Origin: Cyclonatronum proteinivorum
Lineage (GTDB): Bacteria > Bacteroidota > Rhodothermia > Balneolales > Cyclonatronaceae
Reading direction: 5' to 3'
Length of the DNA: 64,000 nt
Assembly: GCF_003353065.1 (NCBI RefSeq)
Contig: NZ_CP027806.1
Coordinates: forward strand, 3,864,501-3,928,500
Shown here: in pieces, positions 3,426-28,771 of the stretch
Position numbering within the stretch: the stretch's first letter is position 1
Layout: each line of letters begins with the position of its first letter
Program-made: the position numbers and the translations under genes
The notes under the pieces: generated by a model
Databases searched by the model: none
The model's input: the letters and a program-made list of their open reading frames with translations, nothing else
What the model was told of the DNA's origin: nothing

Positions 3426-5063
3426 TTATAAAAGAACAGCAGGCCAGAACAGCATCGCATAGGCAAGTGCGACAAACAGGCCAATCACCCCGATGATACC
3501 ACCTACTTTCACCATATCGGCTGTCTGAATATAGCCTGTACTCATGGCAATGGCATTAGGGGGTGTAGAAATCGGAAGCAGCATCGCCATGTTACACGCC
3601 ATGCCAATCAGGACGGCTGAAATAACCAGGCTGAAGCCTTCACCGGCAATTCCGGATGTTCCCATACTCACCGCCAGCGGTATAAGCAGGGTTGCGGTAA
3701 CCGTATTGCTTAGGAAATTCGAGAGCATAAGTGCAACAAACCCGAACACCAGCAGCAACATAATCTGCGGCAGCATATCCCAGCTGATGCTCGAAACCAG
3801 CCATACGGCCAGGCCGGTGTTTTCCATCGATAGACCAAGTGAGATACCTCCGGCAACCAGCCAGAGCACTTCCCAGGGAAGCTTCCGGATGTCTTCTTTT
3901 TCCAGTACACTACTTACCGTGAGCCCCATAATCGGCAGGAAGGCTACCATACCGCTTGGAATACCATGCTGCGCTTCCGTGACCCACAAGATGACGGTCA
4001 GGGCAAATACCACATACATCATAATTGCCCGGGGGGATTTATCGAAGGCGCTGTCGAGTTCGAGTTTGAAGCTTTCGATGGTGGGCGGATAGAAAAAGCG
4101 CATGAGTCCCCAGGCGACAAGCAGCATTACCACGACCAGCGGGGTAGCAATGAGCATCCATGTACCGAAAGCCAGTTCAATACCTTGCTGATTAAGGGCT
4201 GAGATCACAATCGCGTTGGGCGGTGTACCGATAGGGGTCGCCATACCGCCAAGGTTAGCCGCAATCGGAATGCTCAGCGCCAGAATAATCCGGAATTTGT
4301 CTTTCACATCAATCTGAAGCGCAATGGGGATGGCGACTGTCATCATCATGGCCGTTGTTGCGGTGTTGCTCATAAAAGCCGAAAGCACGGCGGTTACCAG
4401 CATGAGACCCAGAATGATGAACATCGGCTTCTGCCCGAAAGGCTTGAGCAGCACATTGGTAAGGTTCTTATCAAGATTATACTTAACCGCGGCTGCCGCC
4501 AGCATAAACCCTCCCAGGAAGAGAATGATGATCGGACTTGCAAGCGTACCCAGAAACAGGGTGTAGGAAGCAGGCGTGTAGCCCACAAGCTTGTGGTTTA
4601 CATCTGAAACAATGGTTGTGCCTTCGCTCAGCGCCTCACTGCGAACAAAGGTAAATCCGCCTTCAGATTGCACGACCTCAATATCCAGTGCCTCTGAACT
4701 GCGGGCGTTTTGTCTGAGCCAAATGGTGGTTCCGTCAACAGCCGTATCCGGGACGCGCCAGACCTGTTCCTGTTCAGCGGCTTGAAGCTGGAATTCAGGC
4801 AGGGCTGAATCCTGAAACAGGGGCCCTTGTGTGCTCAGCAGCACAATCTGCAAAAAAATGACCAGCATGGATGTGGCGTAAATCGGAATGGGCTCGAGCA
4901 TCCAGAAGGAAGCAGCTACCAGAAAAATGCCAAGCGTAAGGTGCCCTGCGAATGACAGGCCGTCAAACTGTACCAGCAAGGGAATCAGGAAGCCGACAGC
5001 TCCCAGGGTAAGACCAACAACTGTTTTCGTCCAGTCGGGAAAACGTTTTTTCTTTTTTCTCAT
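3426..5063 (-). CDS. DASS family (SLC13-like) sodium/dicarboxylate symporter
   Basis: An inner-membrane transporter of 545 residues in the divalent anion:sodium symporter family, which imports C4-dicarboxylates, citrate or sulfate. The two family signatures are present: SNTATTAMMM followed by GTPPNAIVIS in the first half, and SNFLSNTVTATLLIPLA followed by ISTPPNAIAMSTG in the second. These SNT and TPPN motifs form the sodium and carboxylate sites. About 88 hydrophilic residues (about 78-165) separate the second and third membrane segments, an insert larger than the short loop usually seen there, probably periplasmic. It is the first gene of a run with a receiver protein (20-base gap) and a histidine kinase, which suggests substrate-dependent signalling. 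Confidence 0.92.
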   Translation of the reverse strand: MRKKKKRFPDWTKTVVGLTLGAVGFLIPLLVQFDGLSFAGHLTLGIFLVAASFWMLEPIPIYATSMLVIFLQIVLLSTQGPLFQDSALPEFQLQAAEQEQVWRVPDTAVDGTTIWLRQNARSSEALDIEVVQSEGGFTFVRSEALSEGTTIVSDVNHKLVGYTPASYTLFLGTLASPIIILFLGGFMLAAAAVKYNLDKNLTNVLLKPFGQKPMFIILGLMLVTAVLSAFMSNTATTAMMMTVAIPIALQIDVKDKFRIILALSIPIAANLGGMATPIGTPPNAIVISALNQQGIELAFGTWMLIATPLVVVMLLVAWGLMRFFYPPTIESFKLELDSAFDKSPRAIMMYVVFALTVILWVTEAQHGIPSGMVAFLPIMGLTVSSVLEKEDIRKLPWEVLWLVAGGISLGLSMENTGLAVWLVSSISWDMLPQIMLLLVFGFVALMLSNFLSNTVTATLLIPLAVSMGTSGIAGEGFSLVISAVLIGMACNMAMLLPISTPPNAIAMSTGYIQTADMVKVGGIIGVIGLFVALAYAMLFWPAVLL

Positions 5064-5578
5064 ATCGTGATTTTGTTCTTCAAATCAAGGCGTCCGTTTC
5101 AGCTTGCAGCGCTTATCGCGCAATACTATTTATCAATGGGGTGAAACCGTGTACATGCGATCCTGTGGACCGCTAAACTGTACAGGTCATATTCTAATAA
5201 TATCATGTGAATTTAAGCTTTTCAGGCACCAATTTCATGTGTTAAATACGCTTAACAAAGCCCGGCAATCGTGCCGGGGCATTTCCCTATCGCAAAACCG
5301 CTTTCATCACTACCCCTTTTACTCCTTTTTTTTTGCACCTTTTATTTTCAAAACCGGCAAAGCGCTTCCCGAACATCCTTCCTGTGACGCAGGCTTTTAA
5401 ACTTGTAAAAACGGTCTTAATTCGGTAATCTGAAAGAATGTGTCCTTTTCCATCCAAAAATCTTCTGACACCCGCTTTCCCAGCGTATTTATTTGCAGGT
5501 TTAGCGACTGTCCGGAGCGTTGCGGAGAGGAAGCTTTTCCGGCACTTTAACCTAGATCATTTACGCTAATCTATCTTC
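5064..5578. other. Divergent intergenic region with a GC hairpin and an AAAGCGCTTCC site
   Basis: This gap separates the divergent transporter and protease genes and should contain both promoters. Two elements stand out: a short GC-rich hairpin at 5260-5280 (GCCCGGCA, loop ATCG, TGCCGGGGC) without a T-run, and AAAGCGCTTCCC at 5359-5370, which matches sites upstream of glpK and dhaK. An open plus-strand frame at 5104-5400 has no recognisable motif. Confidence 0.35.
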
Positions 5579-25000: not shown

Positions 25001-26341
25001 TTAAGCATCAAAAAGCTTCTTCATTCGCTTTTTAAACTGATTTAACGCAAAATCGACAAACCATGCTTTTTCGAGCTTAAATGGCATGGTTTGATACGGC
25101 GCAAAGATTTCATCTACGACATCAATTACCAAACCGGCTAAGCGTCCGGCCTCGGTTTCGAAGGCATCACGCAGTTCAGGGTTTTCCCGCAGAAGTCTGT
25201 CTATCAGATACAGCCCGAACGCGATATGCCGGGATTCATCCCGTTTCAGTAACCCGATGCCTTCACGCAGGCCCGGCAGCATATCCTGTTCAGTCAGCAT
25301 CCGGTGATATGCTTCGTAGCCCGTTTCTGCCAGCGTGCCCTCCACTATCATATTATAGGTAAGCGAAGCGAAAAGCTGTGCTTTGGGGCTGTCGTCCTTA
25401 TGCAGACGCTGCAGGGCTGTTTCGAGTTCACCGTGAAAAAGCCTGCGATACGCCGGGCCGTGATAATGTTCCATATCAAAAGGTTTCCCGATCACATCGC
25501 GGAGAAAGAGTGCAAAAAACTCGGTGTGCTTGGCTTCCTCCCACAAAAAGCTTGTTAGAAACAGTTCTTCTTCAATGCGACCTTCTCTCGCAAGCGTTTG
25601 GATGAGGGGGAGCAGATCGAGGGTAACCGCCTCTTCGCCGCCCATAAACATGGCCGTAAGCCTGAAAATGAGATCTTTTTCAGTATCTGTAAATGTTACC
25701 CACTGCGCCCGATCCTTGCTGAAATCAATGTCAGCGGGGTTCCATACCCCAAGTTGTTTCGCCTTCTGAAAAAGCTGCATGGGGATACTTTCAAAATCAA
25801 GTCCCCTGCTTGTGGTTGAATAGCTGCTTCTTCCGTCTGACTTTTCCGTTTTACGGTGGCTGAGGCCTGTTTTTGAAGGATCCTGTGCCTGAGATGCCTC
25901 AGCTGAATACGGTGTATCTGGTTTGGCAACTGCCTCAGCGGCTGCAGAAAGGAGGGCTTTGGCCGCATTCCGCTGCAAGCCAAGGGTGAGCATGCTTCCT
26001 TTTTCAACCCGTATTACCCCGCTCATGATCATAAACAGCGGGTCTTTGTTATCTCTTATGAGTTTTTCCCAAATATGGTAGGGCGCAGTAAGTATGTAGG
26101 GAGCGGATTGAAGATCTGCTTCACCTGCATAGCGCAGCTGCTTACAGCTACCGTTTTCAAGGTCGAGGAAGAAGCCTGTATGTTTTTTCCCGTCCGCATT
26201 GAGCCCGTCATCGAATCTAAGGACGATAGCATCTTTCCATTTTTTGCCAGCTTCCCTGTATGCTTCACTTGCGTTAATCGTACGCATCCAGGAACTCATC
26301 CATGAATCTGAAAATAGCGCGTCTTTTTTAGTCATACCCAT
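25001..26341 (-). CDS. SCP2-like domain fused to R2-like ligand-binding oxidase (R2lox)
   Basis: A 446-residue fusion. Residues about 1-140 resemble an SCP2 lipid-carrier domain (GFFLDLENGSCKQLRY, YHIWEKLIRDNKDPLFMIMSG, GSMLTLGLQ); a polar linker (about 140-180) follows. Residues about 180-446 are an R2lox: a ribonucleotide-reductase-R2-like protein that assembles a Mn/Fe site, binds a fatty acid and makes a Val-Tyr ether cross-link. All metal ligands are present: Glu236, Glu269, His272, Glu334, Glu369, His372, as are the cross-link residues Val239 and Tyr329. Their spacing equals that of Geobacillus R2lox, as I recall it, with a constant offset of 167. It lies 61 bases after ytxJ, at the end of the T9SS operon. 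The reaction is unknown. Confidence 0.88.
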   Translation of the reverse strand: MGMTKKDALFSDSWMSSWMRTINASEAYREAGKKWKDAIVLRFDDGLNADGKKHTGFFLDLENGSCKQLRYAGEADLQSAPYILTAPYHIWEKLIRDNKDPLFMIMSGVIRVEKGSMLTLGLQRNAAKALLSAAAEAVAKPDTPYSAEASQAQDPSKTGLSHRKTEKSDGRSSYSTTSRGLDFESIPMQLFQKAKQLGVWNPADIDFSKDRAQWVTFTDTEKDLIFRLTAMFMGGEEAVTLDLLPLIQTLAREGRIEEELFLTSFLWEEAKHTEFFALFLRDVIGKPFDMEHYHGPAYRRLFHGELETALQRLHKDDSPKAQLFASLTYNMIVEGTLAETGYEAYHRMLTEQDMLPGLREGIGLLKRDESRHIAFGLYLIDRLLRENPELRDAFETEAGRLAGLVIDVVDEIFAPYQTMPFKLEKAWFVDFALNQFKKRMKKLFDA

Positions 26342-26402: not shown

Positions 26403-26789
26403 TCAGAGCTCATCGAGCGCTTCCATTACCGCTTCGCCCCTCACCGCTCCGTGCGAGCCATGCCAAAAAGCCTGACCTTTATACAAAACAATAGCCTGTG
26501 GGGACTGATGCTGCACACCCGATTTTTCTGCAACATAATTCGAGAGTGGTCTTTCAGCTCTTACGTCAATAAAATAGACATCCGCCTTTTCCATAATTTG
26601 TTCCATATTCCGTTCAAGGCTCAAAAGGGAATAGGTGCAGACGCTGCAGGCAAAACTGTGCTTATAAATCAAAGCCGGGCGTGCATTCGAATCAAATATC
26701 GGCTCCGCCTGATCCTTGTTTTCAAAACGGGCCCACTTATCTGAAATGGACGGACCGCCTGACGATTTGAATATGTCTAAGAAACTCAT
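26403..26789 (-). CDS. ytxJ: YtxJ-like bacillithiol-system redox protein
   Basis: A 128-residue thioredoxin-fold protein of the YtxJ (DUF2847) family, linked by genome context in other bacteria to bacillithiol and to removal of bacillithiol from proteins. The active-site region is IYKHSFACSVC (Cys48 and Cys51), with LVID-like FIDVRAERPLSNYVAEKSGVQHQSPQAIVLYKG containing the cis-Pro. The start codon overlaps the stop of the GldK-like gene by four bases (ATGA), so translation is coupled. Having it inside a secretion operon is unusual and suggests that thiol control matters for one of the neighbours. No bshA, bshB or bshC gene is in the window. Confidence 0.85.
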   Translation of the reverse strand: MSFLDIFKSSGGPSISDKWARFENKDQAEPIFDSNARPALIYKHSFACSVCTYSLLSLERNMEQIMEKADVYFIDVRAERPLSNYVAEKSGVQHQSPQAIVLYKGQAFWHGSHGAVRGEAVMEALDEL

Positions 26790-28771
26790 TCGAACTCCCG
26801 GTCCAGCATGTCAAGAATACTTTCACCGTCTTCCCCAATTCCAGAGCTTACGGCTACACGAAAACCAATACGTGGTGACGCCTGATGACCAAGGCCAAAG
26901 TTACGCACACCTGATCCGATAAAGAATCGGGATGAAGCCCAGCTGCCTCCCCGGTGAATTTTACGGGGCTCATCCAGTTTGAAATAGAGCGAGCTGGTGT
27001 ACCGCTGCTCCCGGTTCAGAATCTGATAGGAGTTGGAATACGCATCAAGCACCCATTCGGAAACATTTCCGGCCATGTTATAAAGGCCAAAATCATTAGG
27101 ATCAAAAGCATTAACCGGAGCCATGAGGGTATACCCGTCAAGGTTGTAGACACCGGGTTCCTGCATGTAATTGGCAAGGAAATTCCCCTGCCGGTCCTGA
27201 ACCGTATAGCCATCCCACGGGAATACGCGTCCGCCTACCCCCGATTTAGCCGAGTACTCCCACTCTGACTCGGAGGGCAGCCGGAAACCAGCCCATTCAG
27301 CGAACATCATAGCCTGATACCAGTTTACTGCAACAACGGGATGGTTATCGTAACGCTGATTATAAAAATAATCTTCAAATCGGAGAATGGTTTGCAGGTT
27401 TTGCTCTTTCCACGAATCTTCAACAGGAAAAAGAAATTCAGGACCATCTATAGAAACGCCTTCGGGCAGCTGATCGGGAGTGAATTCCAGCTCACCGGTA
27501 ATATCGTCGAAAGATTGCCCGTCTTCTGTTATGTACGAGGCATAATAAGCTGCATCAGGGAAATCAAGCCCCATAGCAGCGAGAAACAACTTGTACTCTT
27601 TGTTGGTTACGGTGGTCCTGCTAAGTTTGAAATCCGGTACAAAAACGCGGATACGGCCATAGTTTTGAATCTGAAAGGGATCTTCGTCCATGTGCCCCAA
27701 AACAAAGGTTGAGCCCGGAATTCGTGAAAAGCTTTTAACGTAGGAAGTATTTCCCAATGCAACATCCGTGAATGTCACCCGCGCAGCCAGATCATTTCGT
27801 TTAAGCCCCAGCGTATTGCGGTCAATAGCAATATCTCCAAATGCGTCAAAAAAGGCTTCGCGTTGTGCTTCATTCGCGCTATCCATGTTTTCACGGATAT
27901 ACCTGAACTGGGAATTAAGATCGCGTCCGAGCCGCTGCTCACGTACACCTCTCGAAAGCGGTATTCGAATACCCAAAGCGATTACAACAGAGTGATTTGC
28001 ATCCGGCTTTTCTATAAGCTGATCAATGCCATCAAAGTAGTTATTGAGAAAAATATTATACCTGTACGTTGCAAAAAACTCCGTGCCTAATATCATGGCT
28101 TCAAGACTGCCACCCAGGGAGTAAGAAGGGATCATTTCCGGGATCACTTCATCAATTGCTTTTCCTCCCTCCGTTCTTCTGAGCGGGAAATCCTGTGTCC
28201 ATTCATTACGAAAACCTGAACCCGGTACGATAGCCTGTCCGCTCTCATTTAGAAGATAATCTGTTCTGGGGTTGTGGTACTGATAGGCAAAAGAGGCTTC
28301 AGGACTTACAGCTATGGTTCCGTACACGGGGATCCTTAATGAAAGACCGATTTCAGGACCAATAGCCGTGTTCTTTATATTTCCCGGAATCAGCCCTAAT
28401 TCTGCTATATCATAATCCCATCGAATAGCAGAGCGCTGTAAATCTGAGGAGTAACTCAAGACCGAAAGGCCGAAACGGGCCTGTGCTGTTATGCCCCAAA
28501 AATTATAAACAGGCCGTTGCAGAGTTAACCGAAGGCTGTATCCGTTGATCGGTAGTGGCAACGGATTAAACACATTTGCAAAATTGCGGTAGTTCCCGAT
28601 GAAACTGGACGTTCCGACTTCTAAATTCAGATCAACATTTCGGAGGAGTGAGAAACGTGACTGAACAGATTCCTGCTGATCCCGCAAGTCAGGCTCTGAC
28701 TGAGCGAAACTTTCATTTGAAGAAGTTGCGGCTATGAAGACCACAAAAAAAAGAACAGTAACAAGTTTCAT
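26786..28771 (-). CDS. GldK/GldJ-like FGE-fold protein with N-terminal beta barrel
   Basis: A 661-residue exported protein. A signal peptide (1-24, ending SFAQ) lacks the lipobox cysteine that GldK and GldJ have. Residues about 45-275 look like an outer-membrane beta barrel (alternating strands, LGIRIPLSRG at its end). Residues about 345-645 are a formylglycine-generating-enzyme-like fold: IPGSTFVLGHMDED, RTTVTNKEYKLFL, NHPVVAVNWYQAMMFAEWAGFRLPSE, YNMAGNVSEWV, HRGGSWAS. This is the fold of the T9SS/gliding proteins GldK and GldJ, which form rings at the outer membrane. The barrel may replace the lipid anchor or a separate PorP/SprF-like partner (inference). It lies 55 bases after gldN; ytxJ overlaps its end. 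Confidence 0.8.
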   Translation of the reverse strand: MKLVTVLFFVVFIAATSSNESFAQSEPDLRDQQESVQSRFSLLRNVDLNLEVGTSSFIGNYRNFANVFNPLPLPINGYSLRLTLQRPVYNFWGITAQARFGLSVLSYSSDLQRSAIRWDYDIAELGLIPGNIKNTAIGPEIGLSLRIPVYGTIAVSPEASFAYQYHNPRTDYLLNESGQAIVPGSGFRNEWTQDFPLRRTEGGKAIDEVIPEMIPSYSLGGSLEAMILGTEFFATYRYNIFLNNYFDGIDQLIEKPDANHSVVIALGIRIPLSRGVREQRLGRDLNSQFRYIRENMDSANEAQREAFFDAFGDIAIDRNTLGLKRNDLAARVTFTDVALGNTSYVKSFSRIPGSTFVLGHMDEDPFQIQNYGRIRVFVPDFKLSRTTVTNKEYKLFLAAMGLDFPDAAYYASYITEDGQSFDDITGELEFTPDQLPEGVSIDGPEFLFPVEDSWKEQNLQTILRFEDYFYNQRYDNHPVVAVNWYQAMMFAEWAGFRLPSESEWEYSAKSGVGGRVFPWDGYTVQDRQGNFLANYMQEPGVYNLDGYTLMAPVNAFDPNDFGLYNMAGNVSEWVLDAYSNSYQILNREQRYTSSLYFKLDEPRKIHRGGSWASSRFFIGSGVRNFGLGHQASPRIGFRVAVSSGIGEDGESILDMLDREFE

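Follow-up and report, generated by a model that had tools for sequence, protein, structure and literature searches.

The window, a stretch of 64,000 nucleotides of the Cyclonatronum proteinivorum genome, carries on its minus strand (25001..26341) a gene encoding a protein of 446 aa in which an SCP2 (sterol carrier protein 2) domain is fused to an R2-like ligand-binding oxidase (R2lox). The gene is a single uninterrupted open reading frame and full-length homologues of its product are found in related genomes. The SCP2 domain occupies residues 8-142 (25916..26320, minus) and the R2lox part is encoded at 25013..25828 (minus). These are joined by a linker of residues 143-171 (25829..25915, minus), which is variable and mostly disordered, with pLDDT below 50 at residues 152-164, poor conservation in the alignment and a high pN. 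A frameshift, a chimera or an assembly artefact behind the fusion was ruled out because many independent assemblies show the same architecture in one frame. The AlphaFold model of the two-domain protein has a pTM of 0.84, which is above the expectation for random placement and is a sign that the SCP2 and R2lox domains may be placed against each other.

The gene ytxJ/brxC (26403..26789, minus) lies on the same strand, 61 bp upstream of the fusion gene, and encodes a monothiol bacilliredoxin-like protein (Pfam BrxC E 2.9e-26; TIGR04019 above its cut-off). Among the fusion loci examined this gene accompanies the fusion only in the window and in a genome of the same genus (G005, the same as L064/L065), and its product is a possible redox partner of the fusion, coming from a neighbour that is not conserved. 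Positions 26786-28771 (minus) encode a protein of 661 aa. Its C-terminal third resembles GldK/PorK, with 168 bits and thus below the cut-off of 350, and its long N-terminal part falls outside the GldK/PorK model.

The R2lox domain

Residues 172-443 were assigned to R2lox by the NCBIfam model NF006202 (E 1e-111; 373 bits, cut-off 315), and the best solved relatives of this part found by phmmer are R2lox chains, including PDB entries 4hr0 (GkR2loxI of Geobacillus kaustophilus) and 3ee4 (R2lox of Mycobacterium tuberculosis). Residues 194-446 of the AlphaFold model match 3ee4 with Z 33.0 and 4hr0 with Z 32.0. The original prediction had claimed that eight landmark residues of R2lox are present, and all eight were found: E236, E269, H272, E334, E369 and H372 as the six carboxylate or histidine metal ligands, and V239 and Y329 as the ether cross-link pair. 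Moreover, A338 and Y342 are the equivalents of A171 and Y175 of the Geobacillus R2lox, which have been named as residues of its ligand channel (PMC4118035). All ten residues are kept in the 36 distinct fused sequences (36/36), in the SCP2-adjacent R2lox (18/18) and in the other R2lox collected (72/72). GkR2loxI and the M. tuberculosis protein are like the fusion in their R2 fold, their six metal ligands, their Val/Tyr pair and their channel residues, but the 4hr0 and 3ee4 chains (316 and 323 aa, respectively) have no SCP2 domain. Judged by its family score and conserved active-site residues this part of the open reading frame is an R2lox, for which an Mn/Fe cofactor, a formed ether cross-link and a bound fatty acid are predicted.

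The R2 subunit of class I ribonucleotide reductase was also considered as an identity for this domain and was rejected, as the best R2 models, which have cut-offs of 237-310 bits, reach 33-37 bits. A search of its own genome with the complete fusion protein gave no second R2-like match at E <= 0.001. The sole ribonucleotide reductase large subunit found in that genome is a single open reading frame of 1225 aa with a Cys-rich C-terminus (G000:C1:4259180-4261375), which we take to be a class II enzyme, needing no R2.

The function of R2lox was called unknown in a review of 2014, where a fatty-acid ligand and a large channel are described (PMC4118035). The assignment of R2lox as an alkane hydroxylase in 2024 is based on the loss of alkanes in lysates containing GkR2loxI, the gene cluster of which includes an alcohol dehydrogenase (ADH) and an aldehyde dehydrogenase (ALDH) (PMC10867098). 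As this activity comes from crude lysates, and a metal-ligand mutant was barely impaired and retained most of it, it is weak evidence for the function of R2lox. The R2lox account in that paper does not mention SCP2 and the word 'sterol' is absent from its main text. No paper describing the pairing of SCP2 with R2lox was found in the open-access papers searched, subscription papers lying mostly outside this search.

The N-terminal SCP2 domain

That the N-terminal 140 residues or so resemble SCP2 had also been claimed, and similarity to SCP2 was found in sequence, profile and fold. With the whole protein as query, phmmer matched residues 8-142 to Thermus TT1886 (1wfr, E 1.4e-15; 2cx7, annotated 'Sterol carrier protein 2', E 9.7e-15). 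This is the closest solved relative of the domain, with 27-29% identity, and is a stand-alone protein, whereas the domain described here is fused to, or encoded beside, an oxidase. The proposed comparison with SCP2 profiles gave a divided result. A profile of 15 N-domain sequences found 2cx7 with E 1e-31 and a Yarrowia SCP2 with E 0.004, but the copy in the window remained under the cut-off of Pfam SCP2 (PF02036; E 0.16 and 12.8 bits, gathering score 21.3). The same Pfam model matches 14 of the 15 homologous N-domains at E values up to 10, the best being 3.9e-9, and stand-alone homologues lie above its cut-off. No fitting family for the N-domain was found in NCBIfam.

Since a search with the complete model listed R2-type folds alone, the N-domain was folded and searched by itself. 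Its model (pLDDT 93.4) matches 2cx7 with Z 19.1 and an rmsd of 2.2 A over 128 residues (Foldseek E 8e-11), and weaker matches were obtained to the SCP2-like domains of alkylsulfatases, to human MFE-2, to UbiJ and to an insect SCP2. In MFE-2 (1ikt) and in the alkylsulfatases SdsA1 and Pisa1 (2cfu, 2yhe), which match the N-domain with Z 7.9-9.4, the SCP2 fold is likewise part of an enzyme acting on alkyl or fatty substrates. Its partners there are, however, sulfatases and, in MFE-2, a multifunctional enzyme (presumably of fatty-acid metabolism), and not a ferritin-like oxidase as in the fusion.

Ten positions of the N-domain are invariant across 15 fused and stand-alone members. A chance resemblance to SCP2 is ruled out by the sequence, profile and fold matches together, by which the N-domain is a true SCP2 domain, with lipid binding as a predicted property. 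The domain is under purifying selection in the one close pair compared (L074/L075; dN 0.09, dS 0.99), and it evolves faster than R2lox. Of the SCP2 domains examined, 37/38 fused, 17/21 adjacent and 5/6 unlinked ones have a G-x-C motif at SCP2 residues 64-66 (window 26144-26152).

Fused and separate forms of the pair

The search for the same architecture in other organisms, which the original prediction had called for, was productive and gave 36 distinct fusion sequences from several phyla (Balneolota, Calditrichota, KSB1, Gemmatimonadota and further relatives). Among 59 related genomes the full fusion is present in 8, the own genome included, and one more has the N-domain at a contig end. Among 394 genomes of the phylum the fusion occurs in 18, counting the own genome and one copy cut at a contig end. 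In five of these 394, G119 with its separate SCP2 among them, R2lox lacks a fused N-domain. Two others have SCP2 alone, the remaining matches being weaker and R2-type. The scan of named genome contigs, in which 80 of 110 loci were kept, comprises 28 fusions, 3 loci with a separate SCP2 and 49 with R2lox and no SCP2 in the stretch covered, proportions that are not prevalences because the loci were found with fusion queries. The 28 named fusions, three of which are cut at a contig end, belong to Balneolota, to four loci labelled only Bacteroidetes, to KSB1 (L086), to Calditrichia (L087) and to Ca. Kutchimonas (L089). One further fusion (G821) was found in 201 Chloroflexota genomes. Among the 15 of 36 records listed in a plasmid search, R2lox appeared in actinobacteria and haloarchaea and no place covered 80% of the query.

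In Ignavibacteriota and Bacilli, SCP2 is encoded by a separate gene beside R2lox. The SCP2 gene of G119 ends 13 bp before the start of R2lox and in a different frame, and on two contigs (one of Ignavibacteriales, one labelled Bacteroidetes) the stop codon of SCP2 overlaps the start codon of R2lox in the sequence ATGA. The order in Alicyclobacillus pomorum is SCP2, Zn-alcohol dehydrogenase, R2lox, aldehyde dehydrogenase and ABC1 kinase.

A profile restricted to the SCP2 domain found 15 strong SCP2 genes in 14 of 250 Bacilli genomes, which contain 58 R2lox loci in 47 genomes. All but one of these SCP2 genes (14/15) lie within 3 kb of R2lox, in 13 cases on the same strand, for which a simple model gives a chance of about 6e-33, and for 12 of them the nearest R2lox is directly downstream. 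In G446, SCP2 is on the opposite strand at 2.8 kb from R2lox, and G455 has an SCP2 gene and no R2lox. Both genes occur in 13 of the genomes, SCP2 only in 1, R2lox only in 34 and neither in 202 (Fisher p 1e-9), although the loci are not independent events because related species share operons.

SCP2 of the same subfamily is also found without R2lox, in G455, G076 and G122. In the Chloroflexota genomes that have both SCP2 and R2lox the genes are apart, one fusion excepted. SCP2 is missing near most Chloroflexota R2lox, which form the majority of the 49 named loci without SCP2; R2lox can therefore apparently work without this carrier or with an unlinked one.

On a quick R2lox tree, obtained from 94 of 126 sequences including 40 of the 72 without SCP2, the fused state takes 2 changes and the adjacent state takes 4. 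The distances among SCP2 domains correlate with those among R2lox (Mantel r 0.87 for 16 split pairs and 0.86 for 35 fusions), in part because of shared organismal descent; excluded from this comparison were a fusion whose N-domain is cut and, of the 18 adjacent pairs, the one in G446 and that of the second R2lox in G519. The tree of the SCP2 domain, from which the loci below L045 and with them the window copy were left out, is short, its branches are long and its support is weak, and nothing was concluded from it. We infer that neighbouring SCP2 and R2lox genes came before the fusion.

Proposed lipid delivery to R2lox and its alternatives

A carrier in the same chain had been taken as a hint that R2lox acts on lipids or is fed with them. 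The recurrence of the fusion and the stand-alone SCP2 neighbours strengthen this hint: the carrier in the same chain, along with the side-by-side genes elsewhere, suggests that R2lox works on lipids delivered by a carrier, and we infer on these grounds what its substrate may be. The fusion is probably an enzyme that oxidises lipids and brings its own carrier, in which the SCP2 domain would present a long-chain lipid or alkyl compound to R2lox or take the product away. The SCP2 domain would hold such a compound in its hydrophobic cavity and would offer it over the flexible linker to the R2lox ligand channel, where the Mn/Fe (or Fe/Fe) centre would oxidise it with O2. Removal of the product by the carrier would be equally possible as feeding of the substrate. 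In Ignavibacteriota and Bacilli the same arrangement would be realised by adjacent genes, in Balneolota and their relatives by one chain.

The fusion loci have no ADH, ALDH or ABC1 kinase gene close by, with the exception of fragmentary ALDH-like matches at the edges of L074 and L075, and therefore the operon argument comes from Bacilli. In 9 of the 14 linked Bacilli loci both ADH and ALDH are present in the region fetched, which is consistent with a processing of alcohol to aldehyde and then to acid. In 13 of the 14 loci an ABC1 kinase gene is no more than 5 kb from the linked R2lox, whereas the one in G446 lies beside the second R2lox. The two ABC1 kinases scanned are UbiB-like (TIGR01982 E 1e-70 to 1e-72) and fall under the UbiB cut-offs. 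UbiB-like ABC1 kinases are also found near Bacilli R2lox without SCP2 (the loci with such a kinase are L175, L179-L188, L190-L193, L196 and L198), and in most such genomes another full-length copy scores higher (230-285 bits) than the kinase near R2lox (about 150-175 bits).

The SCP2 protein UbiJ binds ubiquinone intermediates and UbiB is an ATPase, and the ubiT-ubiU gene fusion on record joins an SCP2 to a hydroxylase, a precedent for SCP2 serving such an enzyme (PMC6747719). The UbiJ-UbiB ubiquinone hydroxylases thus bring together an SCP2 lipid presenter, an oxygenase and an ABC1-family ATPase, and by analogy the role of the SCP2 that accompanies R2lox would parallel that of UbiJ. The UbiJ system differs, however, in its hydroxylase families and in its substrate, and UbiJ is a distant fold match to the N-domain (Z about 8). 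Tentatively, SCP2-R2lox may be an unrecognised lipid-oxidation module shared across phyla, a ferritin-like counterpart of UbiJ-hydroxylase-UbiB that would have an ABC1 ATPase in Bacilli and be drawn into one chain in Balneolota. If this is the case, the natural substrate of R2lox would be whatever lipid its SCP2 carries. The carrier, present within the fusion and encoded next to R2lox in other phyla, argues independently for a lipid substrate, and the contents of the SCP2 cavity of the fusion would offer a direct route to it.

The parallel could also be a literal one, with SCP2 presenting an isoprenoid or quinone-type lipid as UbiJ does, R2lox acting as an O2-dependent hydroxylase and ABC1 as the ATPase, so that the substrate would be a prenyl lipid and not an alkane or fatty acid. 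The ABC1 genes of the Bacilli loci, the likeness of the two scanned copies to UbiB, the UbiJ structures among the fold matches of the N-domain (Z up to 8.2) and the ubi gene precedent all agree with such a complex. Nevertheless, we consider it rather unlikely, as the ADH and ALDH of the Bacilli loci fit the oxidation of alkyl compounds or alcohols better (quinone-ring enzymes being covered by a small reference set), ABC1 is absent from the vicinity of the fusions and R2lox has been described as co-purifying with fatty acids and not quinones (PMC4118035, PMC10867098).

Another explanation is that SCP2 serves as a sink, which removes an oxidised or toxic lipid product or protects membranes, while R2lox takes its substrate directly from the membrane or the cytosol. 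The evidence fits feeding and product removal alike, and ADH and ALDH would need the product to be handed on. The SCP2 gene usually precedes R2lox in the operon, a weak argument against a sink, and a common view of carrier domains that are part of lipid enzymes is that they recruit substrate; this explanation seems to us quite improbable. That SCP2 is a passive scaffold for oligomerisation, membrane attachment or stability, with no transfer of ligand, is very improbable given its ten invariant positions, its fold close to ligand-binding SCP2s, the purifying selection on it and its repeated pairing as a separate gene, even if Chloroflexota R2lox apparently manage without SCP2 and its ligand binding is a prediction.

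The SCP2 subfamily of the fusion is found with other enzymes as well. In one Anaerolineae genome, L177:5086-7125 (+) encodes a wax-ester synthase/DGAT with an SCP2 of the same subfamily fused at its C-terminus, and a gene for a patatin-like phospholipase (3995-5068) adjoins it. In another Chloroflexota genome (L178:7544-9802, +), a stand-alone SCP2 gene lies directly before an aldehyde ferredoxin oxidoreductase gene. The association of the SCP2 subfamily with these two enzymes, fused or side by side, is in favour of a lipid role of the SCP2 carrier as such.

A divergent R2lox-like family is encoded in two Bacilli genomes (L199:3612-5101, -; L200:2899-4387, -), in which the eight landmark residues are kept and the channel Tyr is replaced by Met. 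In both genomes a divergent SCP2 gene directly follows the R2lox-like gene, and these two examples possibly represent an independent pairing.
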